Part shown: in pieces, positions 1 to 52,100 of the stretch
How the letters are laid out: the number at the start of each line of letters is the position of its first letter
How positions within the stretch are numbered: the first letter of the stretch is position 1
Program-made: the position numbers and the translations under genes
Notes under the pieces: generated by a model
The model's input: only the letters and a program-made list of their open reading frames with translations
What the model was told of the DNA's origin: nothing
Database searches by the model: none
Assembly (NCBI RefSeq): GCF_018555685.1
Contig: NZ_JAFLWW010000006.1
Span: 62,001 to 126,000, forward strand
From: Aminobacter anthyllidis
GTDB taxonomy: Bacteria > Pseudomonadota > Alphaproteobacteria > Rhizobiales > Rhizobiaceae
Direction of reading: 5' to 3'
Length of the DNA: 64,000 nt

Positions 1-2339
1 GCTTCAAGCTTCGTCAGGTCGATGCGCCGGCGTTCACCGCCTTCGTGCACGACCAGGAACCCACCCTGCAGCAATTGCAGCGATGCCTCGTTTGAGACAT
101 TGGCGTAGCGCAGGACCGTGTCGCGCAGCGCCCTTGCCGCCTTTTCCGCCGCCTTCCCCGACACATAAGTCTGGCGTGAGGCCGAGGTCTTGCCGGCGTC
201 AGGCGTGATCGACGTGTCGGCGCCTTTCAGCACGAAGTCGCCGAGCGGCAGGCCGAGCGCGTCGGCGGCGATCTGGGCGATGACGGTGTTCGATCCCTGG
301 CCGATGTCGACAGCGCCCTGGTGCAGCACGACCTTGCCGTCGGGCGAGATGCCGAGCTTGATTGTCGAGGGGTTGGGCAGCGAGGTGTTGCCGCAGCCAT
401 ACCAGCACGAGGCGATGCCGACGCCGCGCTTGGTTGTGCTGTTGGTCGCGTTGAAGGCATCAGCTTCGGAAAGCGCGCGTGTCCAACGCGAGGCTAGCAC
501 CTCGAGGCATTCACCGATGCCGACGCCCGCTTCCAGTCGCTGTCCGGTAACCGTTTCGGAGCCGTTGCGAAGCGCATTCTTCAGGCGAAATTGCAGCCGG
601 TCGATGCCAAGCGTGTCTGCCAGCTCGTCATAGAGCGTCTCCTGCATCAATGTCGCCTGGGGCACGCCGAAACCACGGAACGCGCCCGATACCGGGCCGT
701 TCGTATGGATCGCGCGGGCGACGGCGCGATAATTCGGCGTGGCATAGGGTCCCGATGCGTGCACCGGTACCCGGTTGGCGACGGTCGGGCCGAAGCTGGC
801 ATAGGCGCCGGTGTTGAACGTGCCGTCAAAGACCATTCCACTGATCATGCCGTCGGCATCCGTACCGATCGTCGCCCGCATCGAGGCCGGATGACGCTTG
901 GTGGTCGAGGCCATCGATTCCTGGCGCGTATAGGCCAGCGCGGCCGCCCTGCCGGTCTTGAGCGCCACCAGCCCGATCAGCGGCTGCAGCGAGATGTCGA
1001 TCTTCGAACCGAACCCGCCGCCAGTCGCCGTCGGCATGATGCGCACCTTGTCCGGCGCGAGGCCCAGGATACGAGCGGTATCGTCGCGGTCCATGTGAGG
1101 TGCCTGGGTGCAGGCAACGATGGTCAGCGTGTCGTCGTCGAGGAATGCATAGCCGGCTTCCGGTTCGATATAGGCATGCTCTACATAGGACGTCTGCATG
1201 CTGCCCGAGACCACGCATGCCGCCTGTGCCAGAGCATTTTCCGGCTCGCCGCGCTCGACCAATCCGCGCACAAGCAGATTGTCGGGGCGGTTGGCGTGGA
1301 CGAGCGCGGCCCCTTCCGCCTGGGCACCCGGCGGTTCCAGCATTGCGGGCAGTTCGCGCCATGTGACGGGAAATGCCGCCATGTCCAGATCGCGCGCCAC
1401 CCAGCCCTCGCAGGCCACCAGCGCCACCGCCTCGCCGCGGAAGCGCGTCTCGCCCTCGGCCAGCGCCGGCTGGTCGGCAAAGGGCGGGATGACGCCAAAA
1501 CTGTTGATGCCCGGGATATCCCGGGCAGTGAATACAGCCGCAACGCCGGCATTGTCGGCGATATAGGCACCGAGATCGCCGAAGGAGAAGCTGGCCCGGT
1601 GATGCGGCGAGCGGACGACCAGAACCGACAAGGCGACAGCGGGAAATGAATCGCCGCCGAAAAGCTCGGCTCCTGTCACCTTGGGAATGCCGTCGAGCCT
1701 GACGGGCGAGTTGCCTACGGCGGCACCTGAGGGGGGCAGCGCGAATTGCCCGTCACCCTTGCCCTCTCCCCATAAACGGGGCGAGGGGAGCGTCAACGTC
1801 GCGACCATCTCCCTTCCCCCCGCCGGCGGGGAGAGGCTGCCGGCAGGCGGATGAGGGGCGGCACTGTCGTCGTTCCAGCGCCACGCCCCCATAACGGCCT
1901 CGACGATCTTGCGGTAGCCGGTGCAGCGGCACAAAACCCCGCCGAGTGCGTCCTGCACCTGCTGCTCGCTCGGCTGGGCGATGCGCTCCAGCAACGCGCT
2001 CGCCGTCACCAGCAGGGCGGGCGTGCAGATGCCGCATTGTGCCGCGCCATGCGCCAGGAACGAAGCCTGCAGCGCCGACAGGCTGCCATTGCCCAGTCCC
2101 TCGACGGTGCGGATCGAGGTGCCTTCCACCGACGCCATCGGCAGCAGGCAGGCGCAGACCGGCTCGCCGTCCATGAGCACGGTGCAGGCGCCGCAGTCGC
2201 CGGCATCGCAGCCCACCTTGGTGCCGGTCAGCCTGAGGTCGTCGCGCAGCACCGACGACAGCCGCCGCATCGGCGCGGCGGTTACCGACATGAGGGCGCC
2301 GTTGACTGTGAAGTTGATCGGCGCCCGGTCGCTTTTCAT
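1..2339 (-). CDS. Fused 2Fe-2S / molybdopterin-binding subunit of a molybdenum hydroxylase (partial, C-terminus outside window)
   Basis: The product is the iron-sulfur and catalytic parts of a xanthine dehydrogenase/CO-dehydrogenase-family hydroxylase in one chain; 779 residues lie in the window and the frame is open at base 1. Residues 1-155 are a CoxS-type domain: C44, C49, C52 and C64 bind the plant-type cluster, and CGIC (102-105) with CRC (137-139) bind the second. From about residue 209 a CoxL/XdhB-type domain begins, with GGGFGSK and GAFRGFGVPQ as Mo-cofactor loops. In most relatives these are two genes. The linker (about 160-205) is encoded by a palindromic intergenic repeat read in frame, giving Pro/Gly-rich text. 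ATG 2339 overlaps the stop of the FAD subunit (ATGA), so translation is probably coupled. An internal ATG at residue 178 preceded by GGAAGGGAG could allow some separate large subunit. The substrate cannot be told from sequence. Confidence 0.88.
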   Translation of the reverse strand, partial: MKSDRAPINFTVNGALMSVTAAPMRRLSSVLRDDLRLTGTKVGCDAGDCGACTVLMDGEPVCACLLPMASVEGTSIRTVEGLGNGSLSALQASFLAHGAAQCGICTPALLVTASALLERIAQPSEQQVQDALGGVLCRCTGYRKIVEAVMGAWRWNDDSAAPHPPAGSLSPPAGGREMVATLTLPSPRLWGEGKGDGQFALPPSGAAVGNSPVRLDGIPKVTGAELFGGDSFPAVALSVLVVRSPHHRASFSFGDLGAYIADNAGVAAVFTARDIPGINSFGVIPPFADQPALAEGETRFRGEAVALVACEGWVARDLDMAAFPVTWRELPAMLEPPGAQAEGAALVHANRPDNLLVRGLVERGEPENALAQAACVVSGSMQTSYVEHAYIEPEAGYAFLDDDTLTIVACTQAPHMDRDDTARILGLAPDKVRIMPTATGGGFGSKIDISLQPLIGLVALKTGRAAALAYTRQESMASTTKRHPASMRATIGTDADGMISGMVFDGTFNTGAYASFGPTVANRVPVHASGPYATPNYRAVARAIHTNGPVSGAFRGFGVPQATLMQETLYDELADTLGIDRLQFRLKNALRNGSETVTGQRLEAGVGIGECLEVLASRWTRALSEADAFNATNSTTKRGVGIASCWYGCGNTSLPNPSTIKLGISPDGKVVLHQGAVDIGQGSNTVIAQIAADALGLPLGDFVLKGADTSITPDAGKTSASRQTYVSGKAAEKAARALRDTVLRYANVSNEASLQLLQGGFLVVHEGGERRRIDLTKLE
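1753..1863. repeat. Palindromic intergenic-type repeat located inside a coding region
   Basis: Two adjacent hairpin units lie here. The first is CCCTCTCCCC-ATAAA-CGGGGCGAGGG near 1762-1788. The second contains CCGCCGGCGGGG and CTGCCGGCAG followed by CGGATGAGGGG near 1816-1858. I recognise this composition as the rhizobial dispersed palindromic repeat that normally lies between genes. Here it is read through without a stop and forms the linker between the 2Fe-2S and Mo domains of the surrounding gene. Confidence 0.75.
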
Positions 2340-3193
2340 GCCGCTGCCCGTTTCTGCGAGCCATGTGTCGCCAGCAAAATTGCACGCGCCACGATCTCGC
2401 GCGCCGCACTTCGCCTGTACCCGGCGCTGCCGCGCACGTCGTCGATCGGCGATAATTCATCCAGCCCTGCGGCTTGGACGCTCGCTTCAATGGCTTCCGG
2501 CCCTTGCCCGGCAAGCGAAGCTTCCAGGGGGTACAGGCGCTGCGCCACCGCGGAGCAGGAACCCACTGAAATCGCCGCGCTGGCGATCCGTCCTTGGCCG
2601 TCGAGCACGACCCTTGCCGCCGCCATGGCGATCGAGATGACGAGATAGCGCCGCGCCCCCAGTTTGACGAAGGCCGAACGACCGGCAACGCTGGCCTTGG
2701 GAATGCGCAGCGCCGTCACCAGTTCGTCCTCGCGCAGTCTCGTTTGGCGGTTGCCGACGATGAATTCGCCAAGCGGCAGGATGCGCAGCTCGTGACGCGA
2801 CCGCAGCTCGACCTCGGCGTCGAGTATCATCAGGGCCGGAACCCCATCCGCTGCCGGCGAGGCGTTGCATATGTTGCCGGCTACCGACGCGACGTTCTGG
2901 ATCTGGATCGAGCCGACCTCGCGCGCCGCCTGCTTCAGTGCCTCGAAGGCCGGCGGCAGCGGCGTCTTGTCGACCTCGGCCCAGCTTGTGCGCGCCCCGA
3001 TGACAAAATGGCTGTCGCTTTCGACGATGCCACGCAGCGCGTCGATACCATTGATATCGATTACATCGTACTGAAGCGGGCGGTTGCCCAAGGCGGGATA
3101 GAAGTCCGTTGCGCCCGCCAGAATTCGCCACGAACCTTCGCTGAGCAGCGCCAGCGCTTCGTCGAGCGTCTTGGGTTTCGCGTAACGGGTCAC
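2336..3193 (-). CDS. FAD-binding subunit of a molybdenum hydroxylase (CoxM/XdhA-like)
   Basis: This 285-residue protein carries electrons from the iron-sulfur clusters to FAD and an acceptor in a three-domain molybdenum hydroxylase. The family is shown by the N-terminal FAD-loop AGATDFYP (family form AGGTDL-P) near residue 27 and by SVAGNICNASPAAD (family form TIGGN-A-ASP--D) near residue 100; length is normal for CoxM-type subunits. The start is GTG 3193, with GGGAGG six bases upstream. Its stop overlaps the ATG of the fused 2Fe-2S/Mo gene, giving the order FAD subunit then fused subunit. No cofactor-insertion gene (XdhC or CoxF) is visible, but the operon continues beyond the left edge. Confidence 0.9.
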   Translation of the reverse strand: MTRYAKPKTLDEALALLSEGSWRILAGATDFYPALGNRPLQYDVIDINGIDALRGIVESDSHFVIGARTSWAEVDKTPLPPAFEALKQAAREVGSIQIQNVASVAGNICNASPAADGVPALMILDAEVELRSRHELRILPLGEFIVGNRQTRLREDELVTALRIPKASVAGRSAFVKLGARRYLVISIAMAAARVVLDGQGRIASAAISVGSCSAVAQRLYPLEASLAGQGPEAIEASVQAAGLDELSPIDDVRGSAGYRRSAAREIVARAILLATHGSQKRAAA

Positions 3194-3404
3194 GCAATGC
3201 CTCCCGGCAGTTGCCGGACATTTTCATTCGTACACAAGTGATAACCTGCCGGGACCTTTTGTCAAAGCCTGGCTTTACTTCGCCGGATCACTTCCCGGCG
3301 CGGATTGCGCCTCGCCAAGTTGGTGGTTGACGCAAGGCGCCTTCTGGACGAATTTCGGCGGCCCGCCACCGAGGCGGTACCGATTGAGTCACAATGGAGG
3401 CCGT

Positions 3405-4004
3405 ATGGCCACGGACGCGCTTATCGTCGTCGATCTGCAAAACGACTTCTGCCCCGGCGGCGCGCTTGCCGTTAATGGCGGCGACGAGATCATTCCGCTG
3501 GTCAACGACCTCATCCGCAACGCCGAGCACGTCATGCTGACCCAGGACTGGCATCCGGCCAGCCATTCGAGCTTTGCTTCCAGCCATCCGGGCAAGCATC
3601 CGTTCGAAAGCGTTCGCATGTCGTACGGGCCGCAGACCCTGTGGCCAGATCACTGCATCCAGGGCAGCCGTGGCGCCGATTTCCACCCCGGGCTCGCTTG
3701 CGCCAAGGCCGAAATCGTCATCCGCAAGGGCTTTCGCCCAGGCATCGACAGCTACTCGGCATTTTTCGAAAACGACCGCTTCACCCCGACCGGTCTTGCG
3801 GGATATCTCCGCGAGCGTGACGTCGCCTCCATAACCCTCGTCGGCCTCGCCACCGATTTTTGCGTCGCCTATTCGGCGCTCGACGCGGTCAAGCATGGCT
3901 TCGCCACCACGGTGCGCCTCGATGCGTGCCGGGCGATCGACCTCAATGGTTCGCTGGAGACGATGATCGGCAAGATGCGCGACGCCGGCGTAAAGCTGGT
4001 CTAG
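3405..4004 (+). CDS. pncA: Nicotinamidase / pyrazinamidase
   Basis: PncA hydrolyses nicotinamide to nicotinate and ammonia in the NAD salvage pathway in the cytoplasm. The 199-residue protein has the isochorismatase-fold triad D10 (VVDLQNDFCPGGAL), K108 (VIRKGF) and C153 (TDFCVAYSA), and the metal-binding QDWHPASHSSF loop. Length matches family members. I chose ATG 3405 because GGAGG ends six bases upstream; the frame is open from 3327 but the extra residues look like leader sequence. It is divergent from the molybdenum hydroxylase and precedes the antiporter by 90 bases. PncB, the next salvage enzyme, is at 12.2-13.5 kb on the other strand, so the pathway is split within the window. Confidence 0.93.
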   Translation: MATDALIVVDLQNDFCPGGALAVNGGDEIIPLVNDLIRNAEHVMLTQDWHPASHSSFASSHPGKHPFESVRMSYGPQTLWPDHCIQGSRGADFHPGLACAKAEIVIRKGFRPGIDSYSAFFENDRFTPTGLAGYLRERDVASITLVGLATDFCVAYSALDAVKHGFATTVRLDACRAIDLNGSLETMIGKMRDAGVKLV

Positions 4005-4094
4005 TTATCCGGCGCTGGCAGCGCCCGGCTGCGCCGCCGACACGACGAATTTGAAAAGAATGTCCGGCGCATACGCCGGCACCGAGGGGACAGC

Positions 4095-8817: not shown

Positions 8818-8939
8818 ACCCTCCCCCTTGTGGGGAGGGTGACCGTGCAGCGGTCGGGTGGGGGTATCGGGCTAGGGCTGTTCTAGACGACCCCCACCCC
8901 GGCGCGTTCCGCGCCGACCCTCCCCACAAGGGGGAGGGT
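8818..8939. repeat. GC-rich inverted-repeat element between ABC binding-protein and permease genes
   Basis: Outer arms ACCCTCCCCCTTGTGGGG (from 8818) and its mirror CCCCACAAGGGGGAGGGT (to 8939) bracket inner text GGTCGGGTGGGGGT and ACCCCCACCCC. The complete element can fold as one long hairpin and each arm is itself a small palindrome. A clearly related copy lies at 19293-19409. It is the kind of dispersed palindromic element seen across rhizobial genomes. Confidence 0.85.
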
Positions 8940-11865: not shown

Positions 11866-11979
11866 CACGCTCCCGATGTGCCATATGGCTTGGGTCGCGG
11901 AAAGGGGGCGACTATCTACGGCGGATGGCGACAGGTGGTGACGCTCGCGCTTTGCGAGGCAGCCCTTTTGCCGCGCGAT

Positions 11980-12174
11980 CCTTCGCACCCCCCTCTGGCC
12001 TGCCGGCCATCTCCCCCACAAGGAGGGAGATCACGCCTTCATCAGCCGCCCGGCCAACTACCAACGTTGCAAAGGCTCATCCATACGACGTTGTAGAATG
12101 AGCGCCGCCGGCAACGAGACTAATCTCCCTCCTTGTGGGGGAGATGCCCGGCAGGGCAGAGGGGGGTGCGAAGG
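11980..12174. repeat. 50-base near-perfect inverted repeat with palindromic arms
   Basis: Arm one is 11980-12029 and arm two is 12125-12174. They are reverse complements except for two positions, and those two differences fall within a TGGCCGGCAGGCCA / TGCCCGGCAGGGCA core that stays palindromic in both arms. Each arm therefore keeps its own hairpin. The element fills most of the 353-base gap between the pncB stop and the membrane-protein start; I see no gene in that gap. Confidence 0.85.
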
Positions 12175-12218
12175 AATGAGAGGTTGAAGGAAACCCAAAT
12201 CCAGGCCCCAAGCCGCCC

Positions 12219-19284: not shown

Positions 19285-19292
19285 TCTGGTTT

Positions 19293-19409
19293 ACCCTCCC
19301 CCTTGTGGGGAGGGTGGCCCGCAGGGCCGGGTGGGGGTACTCGCCAAACTTCGTGCTTGCCGACCCCCACCCCGTCGCTACGCGCCGACCTCCCCACAAG
19401 GGGGAGGGT
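19293..19409. repeat. GC-rich inverted-repeat element between PotD-type and PotA-type genes
   Basis: Arms ACCCTCCCCCTTGTGGGG (from 19293) and CCCCACAAGGGGGAGGGT (to 19409) match the outer arms of the element at 8818-8939. The interior again has a GGGTGGGGGTA and GACCCCCACCCCG pair. The right arm lacks one C compared with the left. The element begins nine bases after the binding-protein stop, as in the HAAT operon. Confidence 0.85.
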
Positions 19410-19486
19410 AACGCCAGCCGTCGACGCGGCGTTTCCGACCGACGCGAGGCGCAAGGGCATTCTCAAAATCTCAGATGGGGCAATGC

Positions 19487-25763: not shown

Positions 25764-25951
25764 GTCACGGCATGGATCCCCGGGTCTGCGCAGTTCGCTG
25801 CGCTCCTGCTCCGCCCGAGGATGACGAAGGCTTTGATACCCCGGCCAACCTTCAACCGCCAAGTGGTATTAAGTGCGCCAAGGAAGGCTCGTCATCCTCG
25901 GGCGGAGCAGGAGCGCAGCGACTGCGGAGACCCGGGGATCCATGCCGTGAC
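25764..25951. repeat. Long inverted-repeat element (about 63-base arms)
   Basis: The left arm 25764-25827 (starting GTCACGGCATGGATCCCC) and the right arm 25889-25951 (ending CATGCCGTGAC) are near reverse complements; the right arm has ACTGCGGAGACCC where the left has GGGTCTGCGCAGT, one base different in length. The loop is about 60 bases. This is a dispersed rhizobial intergenic palindrome. It occupies the gap between the HAD and aldolase genes, which converge on it, so its transcript could act as terminator for either. Confidence 0.85.
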
Positions 25952-31497: not shown

Positions 31498-33209
<1,712 letters not shown>

Positions 33210-43186: not shown

Positions 43187-46100
43187 TCAAAAACTCACGC
43201 CGAGATTGGCCCTGAAGCTCTGGTCGACCGCACCACTGCCGAACTGGCCGGCATAAGTGACGCCGAGTGTGGCATCGGGCGTCAGCGTAAGATCCAACCC
43301 CGCTTCGACGATGGCCGTGTCCTTGGCGATCGGCGCGCCGGCGACGGTGAAGGCGCCACCGCTCTTGAAGGCCACGGAGGCCAGCGGCGTGACGTCGCCG
43401 AATGTGTGGCGCCAGCCGACCATGCCGTGCAGCTTGGCGTCCATGCCGCGGATGGCGATTTCGGTGCTGGCCCTGACGCCGAGCGTCGCAAACGTCGTCT
43501 CGGTGGTCGAGGTGGACGCGGTCAGCGCCGCCTGGCCGCCCTTTTCGGTGAAGCCGTCGGTCTTGACGTTGATATAGGCAAGCGCTGCGAAGGGCTCGAC
43601 GATCGCGTCGCCCTGCTGCAGCCGGTAGCTCGCCTCGCCGAAGACCTGGGTGGTGCCGGCATCGTAGCTGGCGGTCAGCTTGTCGTTGAAGTTGGCAAAA
43701 GCGACGGTGCGGCTGGTCTCGATGTCGGTCCAGCTGTAGGCGGCGCCGGCGCGCAGGCTGAACGCCTCCCACTGGCCGCCGGCGAAAACGCCGGCATGGT
43801 AGGCGCTGCTGTCGCCCGAGGAGGCGCGGTCGTGGGCATTGAAGCTGCCATTGCTGTAGCCGGCGAAGGCGCCGATGCGGACACTGTCGCCGATGCCGGC
43901 GTCGAGGCCGCCGATGAAGCCGCCGGTGGTGCGGCTGAAGGCGGCGGCGTTGCCGTCGCTGCCGGTCTTGCCCCAGGAGCCATAGGCCTGGCCCCAGAAC
44001 GCCATGCGCTCTGTCGTTGCTTCGGCAATGACAGGCCCGTCGGGACCATAGGCCATGACGGGCAGGGCGGCGGCCGTGCCGATGTCGCCGAAGGCGGCGC
44101 GGATACGGTCGTTGGCGGCACTGGCGAGGAAGCGGCTGTCCTCGACGAGCATGCCGCCGACGGAGGCGTGGACCTCGCCTGACAGCGCGTCGAAGGCCTT
44201 GCGTGCCGCGTCCTTGTCGAGATTGACGATCGCCTTGTAGATCGCGTGCTTGTTGCCCAGCCTGTCGGCCGCCCCGCCGGCGGCGAACTGGTTGCGGGTC
44301 GCGGCGATGTCGGTGAACTTGATGTCGTTGCGGTCGAGCGACAGGCCGACGGCGTTGCTGGTGTAGGTCAGCGTCGGCGTCAGGAAGGCTAGGTTGCTGG
44401 TAACCGAGGCGAACTGGCCGAGCACGCCGGTTGCCGCGGTCAGGATGGTGTATTGCGTCGACGGCGCGTAGTTGCCGCTGCCGGCCAGCACCTGGACGGT
44501 GCCGCCCGAGAGCGTCGCCTTGCCGGCGACGGAGAGCCTGTCCGACTTGGTCGTGTCGACATCGACCTGGAAGGTCGACCCAGTGGCGAAGCTGGCGTCA
44601 CCAGTCACGCTGAGCGTGCCGATCGAGCTGCCCGCGTTGACGGTCGAACCGGATTGCGCCGTGAGCTTGCCGATGATTCCGGTGCCGCCGAGGACAGCAC
44701 CCGAGGCGACCGTCACTGCCGACTTGGCGAGCGAGCCGTTCACCGAGAGCTTGCCGGCGCTGACTGTGGTGTCACCCGAGAGCAGGCTGGTGGCGGTCAA
44801 AGTGAGCGCGCCGGCGCCCGACTTGGTGAAGCTGCCGGTGCCGTTGATGGCGTTGGCGAAGCTGGCGTCGGTCGCCTGGTCGATGATGAAGGCGGCGTCG
44901 TTGAGGATCGCGCCGCTGCCGAAGCTGGTGGCCGAACCGGAGAGCGTGCCGGCGGAGATGGTCGTGCCGCCGGTGTAGCTATTGGTGCCGGTGAGTACGG
45001 TTTTCCCCGACCCGATCTGCTTGACCGCGCCGCTGCCGGAGATCGCGCCGGCGAATGTCAACAGGTCGGAGCGATTGAAGGCAAGCACGGCATTGTTCTC
45101 GACGTTGCCGATGATGGAGCCAGCCGTGCCGCCGATGCCGATCTGCAGCGTGCCGGCGCTGATCTTAGTGCCGCCGGCATAGCTGTTGGTACCGGTCAGC
45201 GTCAGCGTCTCCGAACCGGTCTTGGTCAGCTTGCCCTGGCCGGAGATCGTGCCAGATGCGGTGAGGTCGGCCCGGGTGTCGAACGTGCCGCCGGCCAGGC
45301 GCAGCTCGATGTCGCGTGCGGTGGTCATGGCTGCGGTGTTGGTCAGGATGCCGCCAACGAAGGTGAGCCCGCCCGAGGCGGCGCCGAGATTGCCGTCGGA
45401 CGAGATCGACAGCGTGCCGCCCTTGATGACAGTGCCGCCGGTGTAGCTGTTGGCGGCGCTGAGCACGAGCGTGCCGTAGTCGTCCTTGACCAGCCCGCCG
45501 GAGCCGGTGAGCTCGGATTCGATCGTGGCAATGGTGCCGGCACTCGAAGCCGTGCCGTCGCCGACGCGGATGGTGGTGGCGGCGTCATGAAGGCCGATCG
45601 CGTCACCCTTGATGACGTAGCCGCTGGCGAACTGCATGCCGGTAACCGATATGGCGCCCTGGCTGCCGTCGACGGTCACCGTGCCGGCGGTGCCCTGGAA
45701 GATGGCGTAGCCCGGTTGCGGCGCCATCGGCGCGTTGAAGGCACCGTCCTGCCGGGTCCAGTTGCCGCTTGCCGCGCTCCATGTGCCGTCGCCGCCGTCG
45801 ACGGTGCCGTTGTTGAGGTTGCCGCTGGCGCCGCCGTCCCAGAAGGCGAGTGCCGTGCCGCCGGTGTTGATCAGGTTGATCTGCTTGGCAACCTGCGTCT
45901 GGATGGTGAGGTCGCTGGCCTGGAAGGCGCCGGGCACGGTACCGATCACCAGCCCGTTGTCGGTCAGCGTGCCGCCATAATTGATCAGGCGATAGACGCC
46001 GGCGCCGAAATCGTTGCCGCCGCTGACATTGAGCTTGCCGTCGAGGATGAGGTCGCCGTCGACGTCGATGCGGTCGCTCTGGGCGCCGAGTTCGAAGTCG

Positions 46101-49100
46101 AGATTGGCGTCGTCGGACAGGCTGAGCGAACCAACTGTCAGCGTTCCCTTGCCAGCACCGGGCGCGATATGGCCGCCGTCGGAGACGGTTACGCTGCCTG
46201 CGATCGTGCCCGAGCCGGACAGGGTCGCATCGCTGTCCACGGTGACGGCGGTGTCGCCGAGCTTGCCGTTGACCTGGAGCTCGCCTGCCTTGACCGAGGT
46301 CGCGCCGGTATGGGTGTTGTCGCCTGACATGGTCAGCTTGCCGGTGCCCTGCTTGTTGAGGCCGCCGGTTCCCGACATGATGCCCGAGAATTCGGTGTCG
46401 TTGCCGTCGCCCGACGTCAGCGTGCCGGCGCCGAGCTTGACGTTGCCGGCACCAGCCAGCGAGGCGATGGTCTGGTTGTGGCCGTCGAGGTCGAAGGTGG
46501 CGCCCGAGCCAACGCTGACCGCGCTGGCAGCGGCGATCGTGTTCGCGGCTCCCGCCTTCAGCGTGCCGGCATCGATCCTGGTGGCGCCTGAGTAGGTGTT
46601 CGCGCCGGAGAGGGTGAACGTGCCAGAGCCCTTCTTGGTCAGGCCGCCGGTGCCGTTGATGATGCCGGAGAAGTCGGTCCAATCGTTGTTGCCGCCTGTG
46701 GTCAGGGTGCCGGCGCCGAGGGCAACCGTGCCCGCACCGGCGAGAGATCCGATGACCTGGTCGAAGCCGTCGAGATCGAGTTCCGTGCCGCTGGCGACTT
46801 CAACTGCGCTGGCCGAGGAGAAGCTGTTGGTGGCTCCGGCCTTGAGTGTGCCGCCATCGAGCCAGGTCTTGCCGGTGTAGCTGTTGGTGCCGCTCAGGGT
46901 GAAGATGCCGCTGCCGACCTTGGACAGGTTGCCGGCGCCGGAAATCGAGCCGGAGAAAATGGTCGAGGCGTCGTTTCCGCCCGTCGTCAGCGTGACTTCC
47001 TGTGGCGAGCCCCAGAGCGGCCTGGCCACGCCCAGCGTGACCGAACCCGCGCCTGCCAGCGAACCGATCTGCTGGTCGTAGCCGTCGAGGTCGAGCGTGG
47101 CGTCGGCCTTGACGGTCATCGCGCCAGTCATGTCGAATGCATTCGCATTGCCCGCCTTGAGCGTGCCTTCGCTGACTGTGGTCGGGCCACCGTGCTGCAT
47201 GGCCTTGACGACCAGCGTGCCGTCGCCGGTCTTTTCCACGGCGCGTGGCACGCCCCCGCCCGACAGGATGAAACCCGAATGTGTGGCGGTGCCCGACGCG
47301 ACCGACAGCACGGTGTTGTCCTGCTGCAGGGTCATGATGTTGGCGAGGTCGACATCGGCGCCGTAGTCGAGGGCGCCGCCGAACATCATGATGTAGCCGG
47401 TGCCGGCGGCGAGGCTGTTTTCAAGCCGCAACGTTCCGGCAAGCGAATAGACGATGCCGTCATAACCGCTGCTGTCGCCCGACAGGGTGAGCTTGCCGGC
47501 GCCGTACTTCTTGAAGTCGCCCGAGCCTGAGATGTCGCCGTCGAAGGAGCTGTCGTCGGACCTGTCGAAAGCAAGCGTGCCGGAATTGCTAACGTTGCCT
47601 GACAGCGTGCCTGTCGTCTCGGATTTGCCGATCTGCAGGACGCTGCCGCTGTCTATGGTCGTGCCGCCGGAGTGGCTGATGTCGCCGCTCATCAGGACGA
47701 CGCTGTTGCCGGTGAGGGTCACCGTTCCGGTGCCGGTGATGTCGCCGGCATATTCGCCATTGGCCTCGGTGTTGTTGAAGACCAGCTTGCTGTTGTTGAG
47801 CACGTCGCCCTTGATCGAGCCGCCATTGCCGATCTGCAGCGTGCCGGCGTTGATCGTTGTGCCGCCGGTGTAATAGTTGGCGCCGGTCAGGGTGGTGGTG
47901 CCGCTGCCGTTCTGCTCGAGGCGCCCGGTGCCGCCGATGTAGCCGCTGATGACGAGCGCGTCGTCGGAGCGGTTGAAGGCCAGAACGCTGTTGTTGATGA
48001 TGTCGCCGGCAACAGAGCCTGAGGTCCCCCCATCGCCGAGTTGCAGGGTGCCTGCGGAAATGGTGGTCTTGCCGGTGAAGGTGTTGTCGCCGGTCAGGAT
48101 CAGCGTGCCGAGGCCGAGCTTGTCGAGTTCGGTCATGTTGCCATCGGCGATGATGGACGCAATCGTCGCCGTCACGCCGCTGTCGGTGTTGATGAAGCTC
48201 GCCTTTTCGTTGCCGAAGGGATTGCCCGACAGGGCGAGGATGCCGCCGGTGAGCTGGTAGCCGTCGGTCGTGAACTGCAGCCCCTGGAAGGCCAGCGTGC
48301 CGTCGACGGTGACCGTTCCGGCCGTGCCGGCGAACACGCCGACCTCGCCGCGCCAGCCGTCGTTGATGGTGGCTTCGCCGGGCGCGCCGGTCCAGTTGCC
48401 GTTGGAAGCACTCCAGGTGCCGCTGCCGCCATCGACAGTGCCGTTGCCGGCGAGATCCGAGCCGTCCCAGAACTGCAGCAGCTGGTCGTTGTTGCGCAGG
48501 ATCAGATTGACCTGGTTGGCGACCGACGTGCTGATGAAGGCGTCGGTGGGCAGCGTGTGGAACGATCCGGTGACGCTGCCCGAGACGTTGAACAGGCGGT
48601 AGTAGCCGGTCACCGCGTCGGGTGTCTCCAGCGTGCCGCCGAGCGTCAGGTCGCCGTTGACGATGACGAGGTCGTTGGTCGGACCGCCGACGACGCCTGA
48701 TGTGCCCAGCTCGAAGATGCTGGTCGAGCCACTGTTGAGGGTGAGGTTGCCATCGACGGTCAGCGTGCCCGGGCTGTTGCCTGCCGACAGCGTGCCATTG
48801 ACGACAGTGGTCGCGATGGTGCCGCTGCCGCCGATGGTCGCGCCGGCATCGACCGTGACGCTGGAGGACGCCGCGATCGAGCCGTTGACGAGCAGCTTGC
48901 CGGCGGAAACTGTCGTTGCCCCGGTGTAGCTGCTGGTGCCTGTGAGGATGGTGGTGCCGGTGCCGGCCTGCTCGAACGTTCCGGTGCCCGAGATGGCGTT
49001 GTCGACGGTGACGAGGTCGGAGCGGTTGAAGGTAAGCGTGCCGCCGTTTTCGACGCTGCCCGAGCCCAGCTTGCCTGATGTTGCGCCGTCGCCGACCTGC

Positions 49101-52100
49101 AGCTTGCCCGCAGTGATCTTGGTGGTGCCGGCGTAGCTGTTTTCGCCCGACAGCACCGTGGTGCCGCTGCCTTTCTGGGTGAGCCCGCCGGTACCGGACA
49201 GGACGCCACCGAAGGTCACCTGGTTCGACCTGTTGAAGGCAAGCGTGCTGTCGTTCAGGGCGATGACCGAGCTGCTGCCGATGCCGCCGCCTGCAGTGCC
49301 GTCGCCGATCTGCAACGTTCCGCCGAAAAGCGACGTGGTGCCGGACATGGTGTTGGCGCCGCTCAGCGTCAACGTGCCGTAGCCTTGCTTCTCCATGGTG
49401 CCCGTGCCGGAGAAGCTGTTGGCGAGGGTGTAGTCGCCGTCCCGGTTGAGGACCAGCATCGCGTTGTTGATGACCGCGCCGCTGCCGAGCGTAGCGGGGT
49501 CGCCATTGCCAAGGGTAAGCCTGCCCGCCGAGATGGTGGTTCCGCCGGAGTAGCTGTTGACGCCGTTGAGGACCAGATCGCCCGACCCGGTCTTGACCAG
49601 GCTGCCCGAGCCGCTGATCGCACCGTTAAGGACCATGGAGTTGTCGGTCTCAAGCGTGGCGGCGGCGTCGAGATCGAAGGCATTGTCGAGCCAGGCGTTG
49701 GTGCCGCGCAGTGTTGCCGCGCCGCCGAAGGCGACAGTGCCGGAGCCGAGCCCTCCGGCCCCGTCGACCTCGACTGTGCCGCCACCGATGTAGGTGCCGC
49801 CGGTATAGGTGCTTGGCCCGCGCAGCAGGAGCTTGCCGGAGCCGGCTTTCACAAGTTCGGTGCCGGCACCGCTCAGCCCCGTGATGCCGGTCTGGCCGCT
49901 GCCGTCGATGGTCAGCCGGTGACCGTCGCCGTCCACGCCGCCGAGGAACTCGAAGCCGGTGCCCGCTTCCGTCAGCACCAGCGCGGTGCCGCTCAGGACA
50001 GCCTGGGCCATGGCACTGCTTTCGCCGGAGACCGTGTGCAGGGCGCCCTTGCCGTTGGCGCCGGTGCCATTGAGTCTCAGCGCGCGTGTGTCGATCGACA
50101 TTTCACCGTCGATCTCGAGCGTGGCGTTGGCCGCGACATCGATGGCGCTCGAACCGTTGCCGAGCGCACCAGCATTGCGGACACTGAGCGTGCCGGCATT
50201 GACGGAGATGCCACCTGAGAAGGTGTTGGCGCCGGTCAGGATCGTCTTGCCCGTGCCACGCTGGCTGAAGCCGCCATTGCCGTTGATGTTGTTGGCAAGC
50301 GTGTAGGTATCGGAACGGTTGACGGCGACCGTGCCGTTATAGTTGTTGATCGTGCCGAGGACGGAACCGCTGGTGCCGCCATTGCCGAGTTGGAGCGTGC
50401 CTGCGTAGATTTCGGTGCCGTTGGTATAGGTGTTGTCGGCGGTGAGCGTCGTGGTGCCACCGCCCAGCATGGTCACGGTGCCGCCACCGGAGATGACGCC
50501 GCCGAAGGTCAGTGCGCCCGTGCGGTTGAAGGACAGCGTCGTGCCGCTGGCCAACGCGACGTTGCCGTCGAGCGAGCCTGATGTGCCGCCATCGCCGATC
50601 TGCAATTGGCCGCCGCTCACCGTGGTGCCGCCGCTGTGCGTATTGGACCCTGTGAGCGTGAGCATGCCGCTGCCGACCTTGGTCAGCGAGCCGGTACCCG
50701 ACGTCCCGCCGGCGAAGGTCGAGGAGACGTCGCCCTGGCCGATGGTCAGGGCGCCGGCGCCGAGCGCGACCGTGCCGGTGCCGGTCAGCCTGCCGATGGT
50801 CTGGGCCTTGCCGTTGAGGTCGAAGGTGGCGTTGCCGGCGACGGAGAGATCCTTGCCGAACAGCAGGCTGCCGCCGGCGCCGAGCCTGAGCGTACCGGCG
50901 TTGACCGCGGTGCCGCCGGCATAGGTGTTGGCGGCGCCGAGCACCACCGTGCCGGCACCGGATGTGCTCAGCGCGCCAGCGCCGCTGAGCAGGCCGTTAT
51001 AGGTCAGCGTCATGCCGGCATCAGCCGAAAGCCCGCCGCCGCTGGCGCCAAGGGTCGCGTCGCGGCCGGTGGCGAAGGACGCGGTGGCATTCAGCGTACC
51101 GCCGCTGAAGCTCAGCGCGCCGTTGCCGAGGCTGGCGTCGGACGCCACCGACAGCATGCCGCCCGAGAGATTGGTGCCGCCGGTGTAGGTGTTGGTACCG
51201 GTCAGGGTGACCGTGCCGGAACCGATCTTGTTGAGCACTGCCGTGCCGGTGAGTTTCGTCGCGTAGGACCCGGCATTGAAGTTGAAGGCAGTCGACGCCT
51301 CGATCGTGCCGGCGCCCGTGGCGCTGCCGCCGGTCGAGGTCAGGGTGGCGAGCGAAAGCGTGCGCCCCGCGCCGATGTCGATGGAACCGCCCGTGCCGTT
51401 GGTCAGTTCGCCGATGCCGGTCAGGTTGCCGCCCGTCAGCGACAGCGTGCCGTTGTTGTTGAAGGTGACGTTGCTGGCGGTGACGTCGCCGTTCTTCACA
51501 TTGACGGTGCCGCGATTGACGAACTGGCCCCAGCCGCCCGACAGCGTGCCGCGGCCGTTGAAGTTCAGTGTCGCGCCGGTTTCGTTCGTCCATCCACCGG
51601 CAGCGGAGACTGTGCCGGTGTCCGCGACATTGACGGTGCCGTTGTTGACGAAGCCGCCATTTGTCGTTTCGAGCGTCGCACCCGAGGCAACGTTCATCGT
51701 CGCGAAGTTGGTGCCCATGTCCAGGCTGAGCGACCTGCCCGTGTCGACAGTGACGAGGCCATAGTTCTTCAGGTCGTAGATGGACCTGGCATTGTTGGCG
51801 GCGCTGGCGCCTTGCACCTTCATTTCGGCGCCGCCGTCGATCAGGACCCAGGTCGGCCTGGTGCCGTAGGAATAGGTGCCCGAGATCGTCGTGACGCCGG
51901 CGCCGAGATGGATCGCGCCCTGCACCGTGCCCTGGTTTGGGGCGGAGCCCAGGCTGTTGATGCTGTTGGTGCCGCCGGTGATGTAGATCGCGTCCTGCCC
52001 GCTGAGCGTGCGCCTGATCGCGCCTGCGGTGCCGATTGTGATGTTCAGGTTCTGGCCGCGAATACCGACACCGCTGGCGCCGCTCGCTGCCCTGTTGCCA

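Follow-up and report, generated by a model that had tools for sequence, protein, structure and literature searches.

Does a dispersed palindromic repeat that lies in frame between the 2Fe-2S and molybdenum (Mo) domains of an enzyme subunit explain why the two domains are one gene, or did it enter a gene that was already fused? The question is raised by the left end of the window, the 64,000-nucleotide stretch of Aminobacter anthyllidis DNA analyzed here (positions 62001-126000 of contig C27 in a 6.71-Mb draft genome of 30 contigs), where one open frame on the minus strand runs from position 2339 past the left window edge and encodes 954 aa in the whole genome (L006:4476-7340). A first-pass annotation had read the peptide between the domains as a translated repeat, and this was borne out (Table 1). 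It had offered two accounts of the arrangement, one in which the repeat merged two separate genes and one in which an old fusion tolerates the repeat as a flexible tether, both of which we evaluated against relatives within the genus and the family.

Table 1. Features at the fused gene, in window coordinates
Feature	Position	Strand	Description
Fused 2Fe-2S/Mo molybdenum-hydroxylase subunit	1..2339	-	954 aa; first 779 aa within the window, remainder further left
2Fe-2S domains	1884..2339	-	residues ~1-152; Fer2 10-59, Fer2_2 78-149
Interdomain linker, predicted disordered	1656..1868	-	residues 158-228, pLDDT <50
Type A dispersed palindromic repeat	1746..1862	-	~115 bp; translated as residues 160-198
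Repeat part folded as RNA	1747..1859	-	one long hairpin; terminal inverted repeats GCCCCTCA / TGACGGGC, consensus TGAGGGGC
Mo (molybdopterin) domains	1..1727	-	from residue ~205, extending outside the window
Separate FAD subunit (xdhB/coxM-like)	2336..3193	-	upstream of the fused gene, 4-bp overlap; NCBIfam scores below cut-offs

Besides the two iron-sulfur families, Pfam recognized MoCoBD_1 (residues 347-589) and MoCoBD_2 in the fused protein, together with an Ald_Xan_dh_C segment (residues 263-311) that scored below its cut-off. The best PDB sequence match was the Desulfovibrio gigas aldehyde oxidoreductase (MOP, PDB 1sij/1vlb; E = 4.9e-90), and the structures nearest to the window protein, those of the D. 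gigas and D. desulfuricans aldehyde oxidoreductases, each consist of one chain. Against NF045668, the family of MOP-type aldehyde oxidoreductases, the protein scored 550.9 bits, with a cut-off of 1100. A single frame codes for the 2Fe-2S and Mo parts, as in the single-chain MOP-type proteins, and would be expected to give one chain here too.

Directly downstream of the fused gene, outside the window, lies a 511-aa protein without Pfam or NCBIfam match (L006:2944-4479, minus strand), followed by a PRK04334-family (UPF0280) protein and an AA_synth (PF06684) protein, and a nicotinamidase-type protein is encoded near the fused gene at window positions 3405-4004. Together, these neighbors may point to a nicotinate or similar N-heterocycle pathway.

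The residues encoded by the repeat read AAPHPPAGSLSPPAGGREMVATLTLPSPRLWGEGKGDGQ. As RNA, the repeat folded with an energy of -70.2 kcal/mol (z = -4.3 versus 200 shuffles), and the type A element that it represents has terminal inverted repeats, GCCCCTCA ... TGAGGGGC, which are a MITE trait and paired in the folds, as well as inner palindromes. An Rfam scan found no family at the repeat. No clear target-site duplication was seen in the genus linker alignment, in which the linkers are too diverged. With 40 of 56 candidates scored, type A gave at least 43 matches in the 6.7-Mb own genome, some of them fragments of a single element. This recurrence is far beyond chance: outside the linker, the best copy is 88% identical over ~114 bp (E = 3.4e-34), and all 10 genomes of the genus had type A matches, with 11-42 per genome. 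In an alignment of 15 near full-length own-genome copies, 37 of 90 reading frames (41%) were open, versus 42-44% in mononucleotide shuffles, and the frame in which the first half of the element is translated differs between the Mo gene and polA. We considered an element selected for an open frame, in the style of the Rickettsia palindromic elements (RPE), and rejected this idea because the share of open frames is at the level of the shuffles.

The relatives speak to the age of the fusion. The same fused frame was present in all nine other Aminobacter genomes compared, and in eight of these the linker segment, measured from CRCTGY to the next conserved motif, lacks the repeat and spans 49-55 aa versus 85 aa in the window protein; the ninth (L016 in genome G007) has a different palindromic repeat, type C, at the same linker position. 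In a family sample of 297 genomes, 93 matched the fused protein at E 1e-150 or better, 86 of them with an open frame of more than 900 aa, while the seven shorter frames comprised five that are fused across the linker and two that are interrupted by a contig end. Counted by linker locus, with some genomes counted twice, 135 of 139 fit the fused pattern, three more read as fused and the last (L199), one of the two interrupted frames, ends at a contig end. Judged from these gene models, fusion is the rule in the family sample, and the premise that 2Fe-2S and Mo domains are normally two genes was too strong, also in view of the one-chain Desulfovibrio enzymes. No split 2Fe-2S/Mo gene pair, such as the coxS-type and coxL-type pair that had been envisaged among orthologues, was found among the 93 matching genomes, a sample in which distant split forms could be missed because its genomes were selected for similarity to the fused protein. 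In one of the five shorter genes that are fused across the linker (L306 in G063, 1089-4006), sequencing error or decay has broken the Mo part into two overlapping frames.

The position of the repeat exactly at the domain border, in an enzyme class some of whose relatives have separate subunits, is consistent with read-through of an intergenic repeat that joined two adjacent or overlapping genes. That the repeat created the fusion in this way is nonetheless highly improbable, and we rejected it: relatives are fused without the repeat, which therefore did not make the fusion, the family sample, although picked by match to the fused protein, held no split pair, and the D. gigas type enzyme is reported to be a single 98-kDa chain. 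By this comparison of genes, the fusion is older than the repeat, which entered a gene already fused. The same relatives argue against a two-chain product, in which the RNA or peptide of the repeat would be cut, or translation would restart inside the repeat, to release a separate Mo subunit. Such a product would fit with related enzymes that act as separate subunits and with an in-frame ATG within the repeat (REMVATL), but relatives that lack the repeat have the fusion too, their linker segments measuring about 42-56 aa, making two chains very unlikely; the gene would be expected to yield a single chain of 100 kDa in the cell.

The window's own insertion looks young, to judge from its closest relatives. 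The repeat is absent from the sister allele (L008 in genome G003, 100% identical to the A. carboxidus protein over 920 aa). Comparison of the core with this allele gave dN = 0.055, dS = 0.454 and dN/dS = 0.12, like the 0.11-0.14 of three other pairs, and the gene is therefore under normal purifying selection. These values also bear on a possible assembly artefact. Repeats are classical misassembly points and the genome is a 30-contig draft, yet a chimera at the repeat is scarcely credible, as the flanks belong to the same orthologous gene with normal divergence and 17 further non-identical alleles have this repeat family at the corresponding position. In a repeat tree of 119 columns and modest support, which holds 13 of these 17 other type A alleles (L110, L141, L186 and L191 left out), the window's copy grouped with an Aminobacter copy elsewhere in its own genome (support 88/83) and was separated from those of other family members (support 84/74). 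The proposed account of an old fusion that tolerates the repeat agrees with these data, except that the insertion itself appears to be recent.

A flexible tether is consistent with the predicted structure. An AlphaFold2 model of 779 aa of the 954-aa protein, built from 48 sequences and mediocre in quality (mean pLDDT 70.7), assigned its linker pLDDT values (Table 1) that point to a disordered surface tether. A fold search with this model returned MOP first (E = 2e-49), with a TM-score of 0.52 and an rmsd of 15.5, at which the modelled arrangement of the domains is unreliable.

We then asked where in the protein insertions occur. Among 115 non-identical family proteins, aligned over a core of 917 positions, 30 carried internal inserts of at least 10 aa, and all 30 inserts were at one linker, after core position 158, with lengths of 18 to 78 aa; outside the linker, the largest internal insert was 4 aa, in two rows. 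The inserts fell into type A (18, the window's own included), type B (6) and others (6), and the remaining 85 proteins had none. Comparison at the DNA level supported type A in 18 of 18 rows and type B in 6 of 6 (L137 over 27 bp only), and it assigned four of the others to type C (L016), type D (L193), type D in part (L198) and type B over 27 bp (L197); the inserts of L134 and L201 had no DNA match to types A-D. The first-pass annotation would have counted it against its reading if orthologues were all fused without repeat-like sequence, and this applies in half. As far as seen they are all fused, and most lack an insert, but 18 of the 115 proteins carry the same repeat family and 12 more carry another insert at this linker.

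Types B to D are dispersed elements as well. Type B gave 52-76 matches each in five genomes (G183, G112, G139, G042 and G227) and was sparse in two hosts (3 matches in G044 and 5 in G078), type C gave 58 matches in G007 and type D 43 in G163; the repeat places are fewer than the matches because palindromes match on both strands. By nucleotide comparison, at least four palindrome families that are distinct in sequence occupy the linker. A remote common origin of families A-D is possible because types A and B (35 bp at 83%, E = 5e-5) and types A and C (40 bp at 75%, E = 6e-4) share short stem similarity. On the family tree, the insert states required 20 changes, of which well supported branches force 17, and type B alone required four, every one of them forced in the same way; these counts include losses.

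Several other repetitive or structured elements were recorded in the window. Two palindromic repeats with CCCTCCCCCTTGTGGGGAGGG arms (8818-8939 and 19291-19411) resemble, by eye, the type C repeat of the G007/L016 linker. Nested inverted repeats at 25764-25951, with perfect 33-nt arms and 31-nt arms at 97%, are perhaps another dispersed hairpin element, and a further inverted repeat at 11964-12190 has 68-nt arms that are 87% complementary and 91 nt apart. At 44906-51253, 17 degenerate copies of a 113-nt unit, 60-73% identical to the reference copy, perhaps encode a large repetitive autotransporter-like protein, and an Rfam match to 5_ureB_sRNA (32769-33058, plus strand, 129.4 bits) perhaps marks a urease region.

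Our main explanation, to which we assign a probability of roughly 0.87, is that a mobile or formerly mobile non-coding palindrome was copied into the linker of an already fused gene, where it found a permissive landing site. The insertion would have happened to add a stop-free, in-frame stretch that the ribosome reads through, so that a Pro/Gly/Ser-rich peptide of ~39 residues, presumably neutral, lengthens a surface linker. Such a linker may accept almost any sequence, allowing the insertion to survive, while an insertion at any other place in the gene would disrupt a folded domain and disappear, and different repeats would in this way have been caught repeatedly across the family.

The alleles of the Mesorhizobium clade provide a point against this explanation. 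In 12 occupied alleles (11 from Mesorhizobium plus L189, which is nested in that clade; the truncated L110 and L141 as well as L186, L187 and L191 were left out), the mean identity of the repeat was 90%, higher than would be expected of an old peptide that is purely neutral. In the same alleles, the flanking linker was 73% and 64% identical, and the core adjoining the linker 89% on the near side and 83% on the far side. Inside the repeat, pN was 0.101 and pS 0.109, versus 0.070 and 0.395 in the core. With a pN/pS of 0.92 the repeat is not conserved as protein, and it has changed far less than nearby silent sites. Either the repeat is younger than the species, through recurrent insertion at the same site and in the same frame and orientation, or it has been homogenized with other copies, or it has been selected as nucleic acid.

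Selection as nucleic acid would mean that the repeat is kept as an mRNA hairpin between the two coding halves, where it could delay the ribosome while domains fold or cofactors are loaded, or change how the mRNA decays; the peptide would then be a by-product. The excess of repeat identity over that of the flanks, the low pS relative to the core and the strong hairpins (z = -4.3 for the window's own copy and -6.1 for L123) are consistent with such a role. Against it, 85 of the 115 family proteins have no insert at all, an equally small divergence results if the repeat was inserted repeatedly in recent times or copied from elsewhere in the genome, and stem changes were mostly one-sided by eye. 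Linker and non-linker copies were, moreover, mixed in the repeat tree, where linker copies formed one clade in 0 of 200 bootstrap trees; this mixture favors recurrent insertion or homogenization, on a weak tree whose starred branches are compatible with one origin. Together, these points make a nucleic-acid role of the repeat unlikely. We consider it quite unlikely that the linker positively favors palindromes because the mRNA hairpin acts, as a pause for folding or cofactor loading or in processing, with the element selected as nucleic acid. If this were true, the peptide would drift freely and different palindromes would be interchangeable, since the hairpin alone would matter.

The type A state is scattered in the Mesorhizobium clade, with at least eight changes and 15 occupied of 55 sequences, yet the linker outside the repeat looks alike, by eye, among occupied alleles. 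Among alleles L099-L141, occupied and empty linkers alternate between sister species, through gain or loss. Local recombination that spreads the insertion within the clade was considered and rejected, as the number of label changes did not drop at the linker (9 in windows containing it versus 9-12 elsewhere; 8 for the whole gene). For L123, with linker places recognized by coordinates, the full-length linker copies of other species were 89-94% identical and full-length non-linker copies of other genomes up to 93%, while full-length copies in its own genome reached at most 88% and half-length own copies 98%. The full-length linker and own-genome copies do not support gene conversion within the genome, whereas the half-length own copies, the non-linker copies of other genomes and the mixing of both kinds in the repeat tree leave it conceivable.

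The fused gene is not the only one affected. In the own genome, in-frame repeats were also found in polA, cobN (two sites) and cobG. Across 76 own-genome loci with 110 merged repeat places (types A-D, with all A matches and part of those to B, C and D; some loci overlap), frames of at least 250 aa with at least 60 aa on either side of the repeat numbered 18, of which 16 were distinct (L045 overlaps L211). Of 15 spanning frames scanned with Pfam, which do not include a cobN antisense frame, four had a family (the fused Mo gene, polA, cobN and cobG), and the 11 without match are probably shadow frames. NCBIfam models for DNA polymerase I (polA), CobN (cobN) and precorrin-3B synthase (cobG) scored above cut-off. 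Most repeat places examined fall outside frames with a known family, which is what a loss of insertions into folded domains would lead one to expect.

The polA repeat sits between the 5'-3' and 3'-5' exonuclease domains, the two cobN sites hold a 49-bp piece of type A and a type B repeat, and cobG has a type B repeat between its first and second parts. The cobN gene adjoins cobG at L211:270-5662 (G000, contig C23), where three in-frame repeats, a piece of A and B twice, occur together. Inspection of the genus by eye showed repeats of more than one type at the second cobN site in 7 of 10 genomes, whereas L069-L071 have none there. Among 38 family polA proteins, repeat-like peptides were seen by eye in three (L052, L059 and L284) and perhaps also in L277. 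The only polA internal inserts of at least 8 aa, seen in 12 rows, were 9-10 aa long and lay at core position 427; this count misses the repeats because these replace a native Ala-rich linker of similar length.

Parts of this picture are known from other systems. The palindromic elements of Rickettsia and Wolbachia (RPE and WPE) are described as dispersed palindromes of ~100-150 bp that lie in frame in conserved genes without breaking them and encode peptides in exposed regions (PMC3767692, PMC2229807, PMC10969869, PMC4224334). Type A is likewise a many-copy dispersed palindrome, in frame in genes that relatives have without it. It differs, compared by description, in its Hyphomicrobiales host, outside those endosymbionts, in lacking both a favored open frame and a conserved peptide, and in that all large inserts of the Mo protein lie in one interdomain linker. 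For such sites, the Rickettsia japonica paper left open whether elements of separate origin have repeatedly entered a hotspot or a single insertion has diverged (PMC3767692). Palindromic repeats of the GTAG/CGTC REP class also occur within genes, DNA polymerase I among them as here, and the recB genes of two Xanthomonas species carry different REPs at about the same site (PMC3733652). Those REPs are 20-40-bp units tagged GTAG or CGTC, whereas the present element as a whole is ~115 bp long and has GCCCC ends, GCCCCTCA/TGAGGGGC.

The enzyme itself resembles D. gigas aldehyde oxidoreductase in the order of 2Fe-2S domains, linker and Mo domains. MOP is described as having no FAD partner (PMC4726530), unlike the present system, in which a FAD subunit is encoded just upstream, with a short overlap, and part of the linker is a translated repeat. 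The window proteins also matched TIGR03311 and TIGR03313, together with their FAD partner TIGR03312 (selenium-dependent XDH/Mo-FeS), models named for a Fe-S/Mo subunit and a FAD partner, but at scores below the curated cut-offs, so that they are not members. TIGR03311 and TIGR03313 are families fused in the same way as the window gene.

Among the matches listed from the open-access literature, with most subscription papers outside its scope, we found no report of in-frame palindromes in Mesorhizobium or Aminobacter. In-frame palindromes as such are already known from Rickettsia, Wolbachia and some REPs; the present case differs in the host group, the lack of a preferred open frame and the focusing of several distinguishable families on one interdomain linker. 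Distinguishable palindrome families at one linker, for all that they may share a remote origin, together with empty sister sites, support the permissive-hotspot model in large-genome bacteria. They also suggest an easy way for non-coding DNA to end up as linker peptide in well-studied enzymes.
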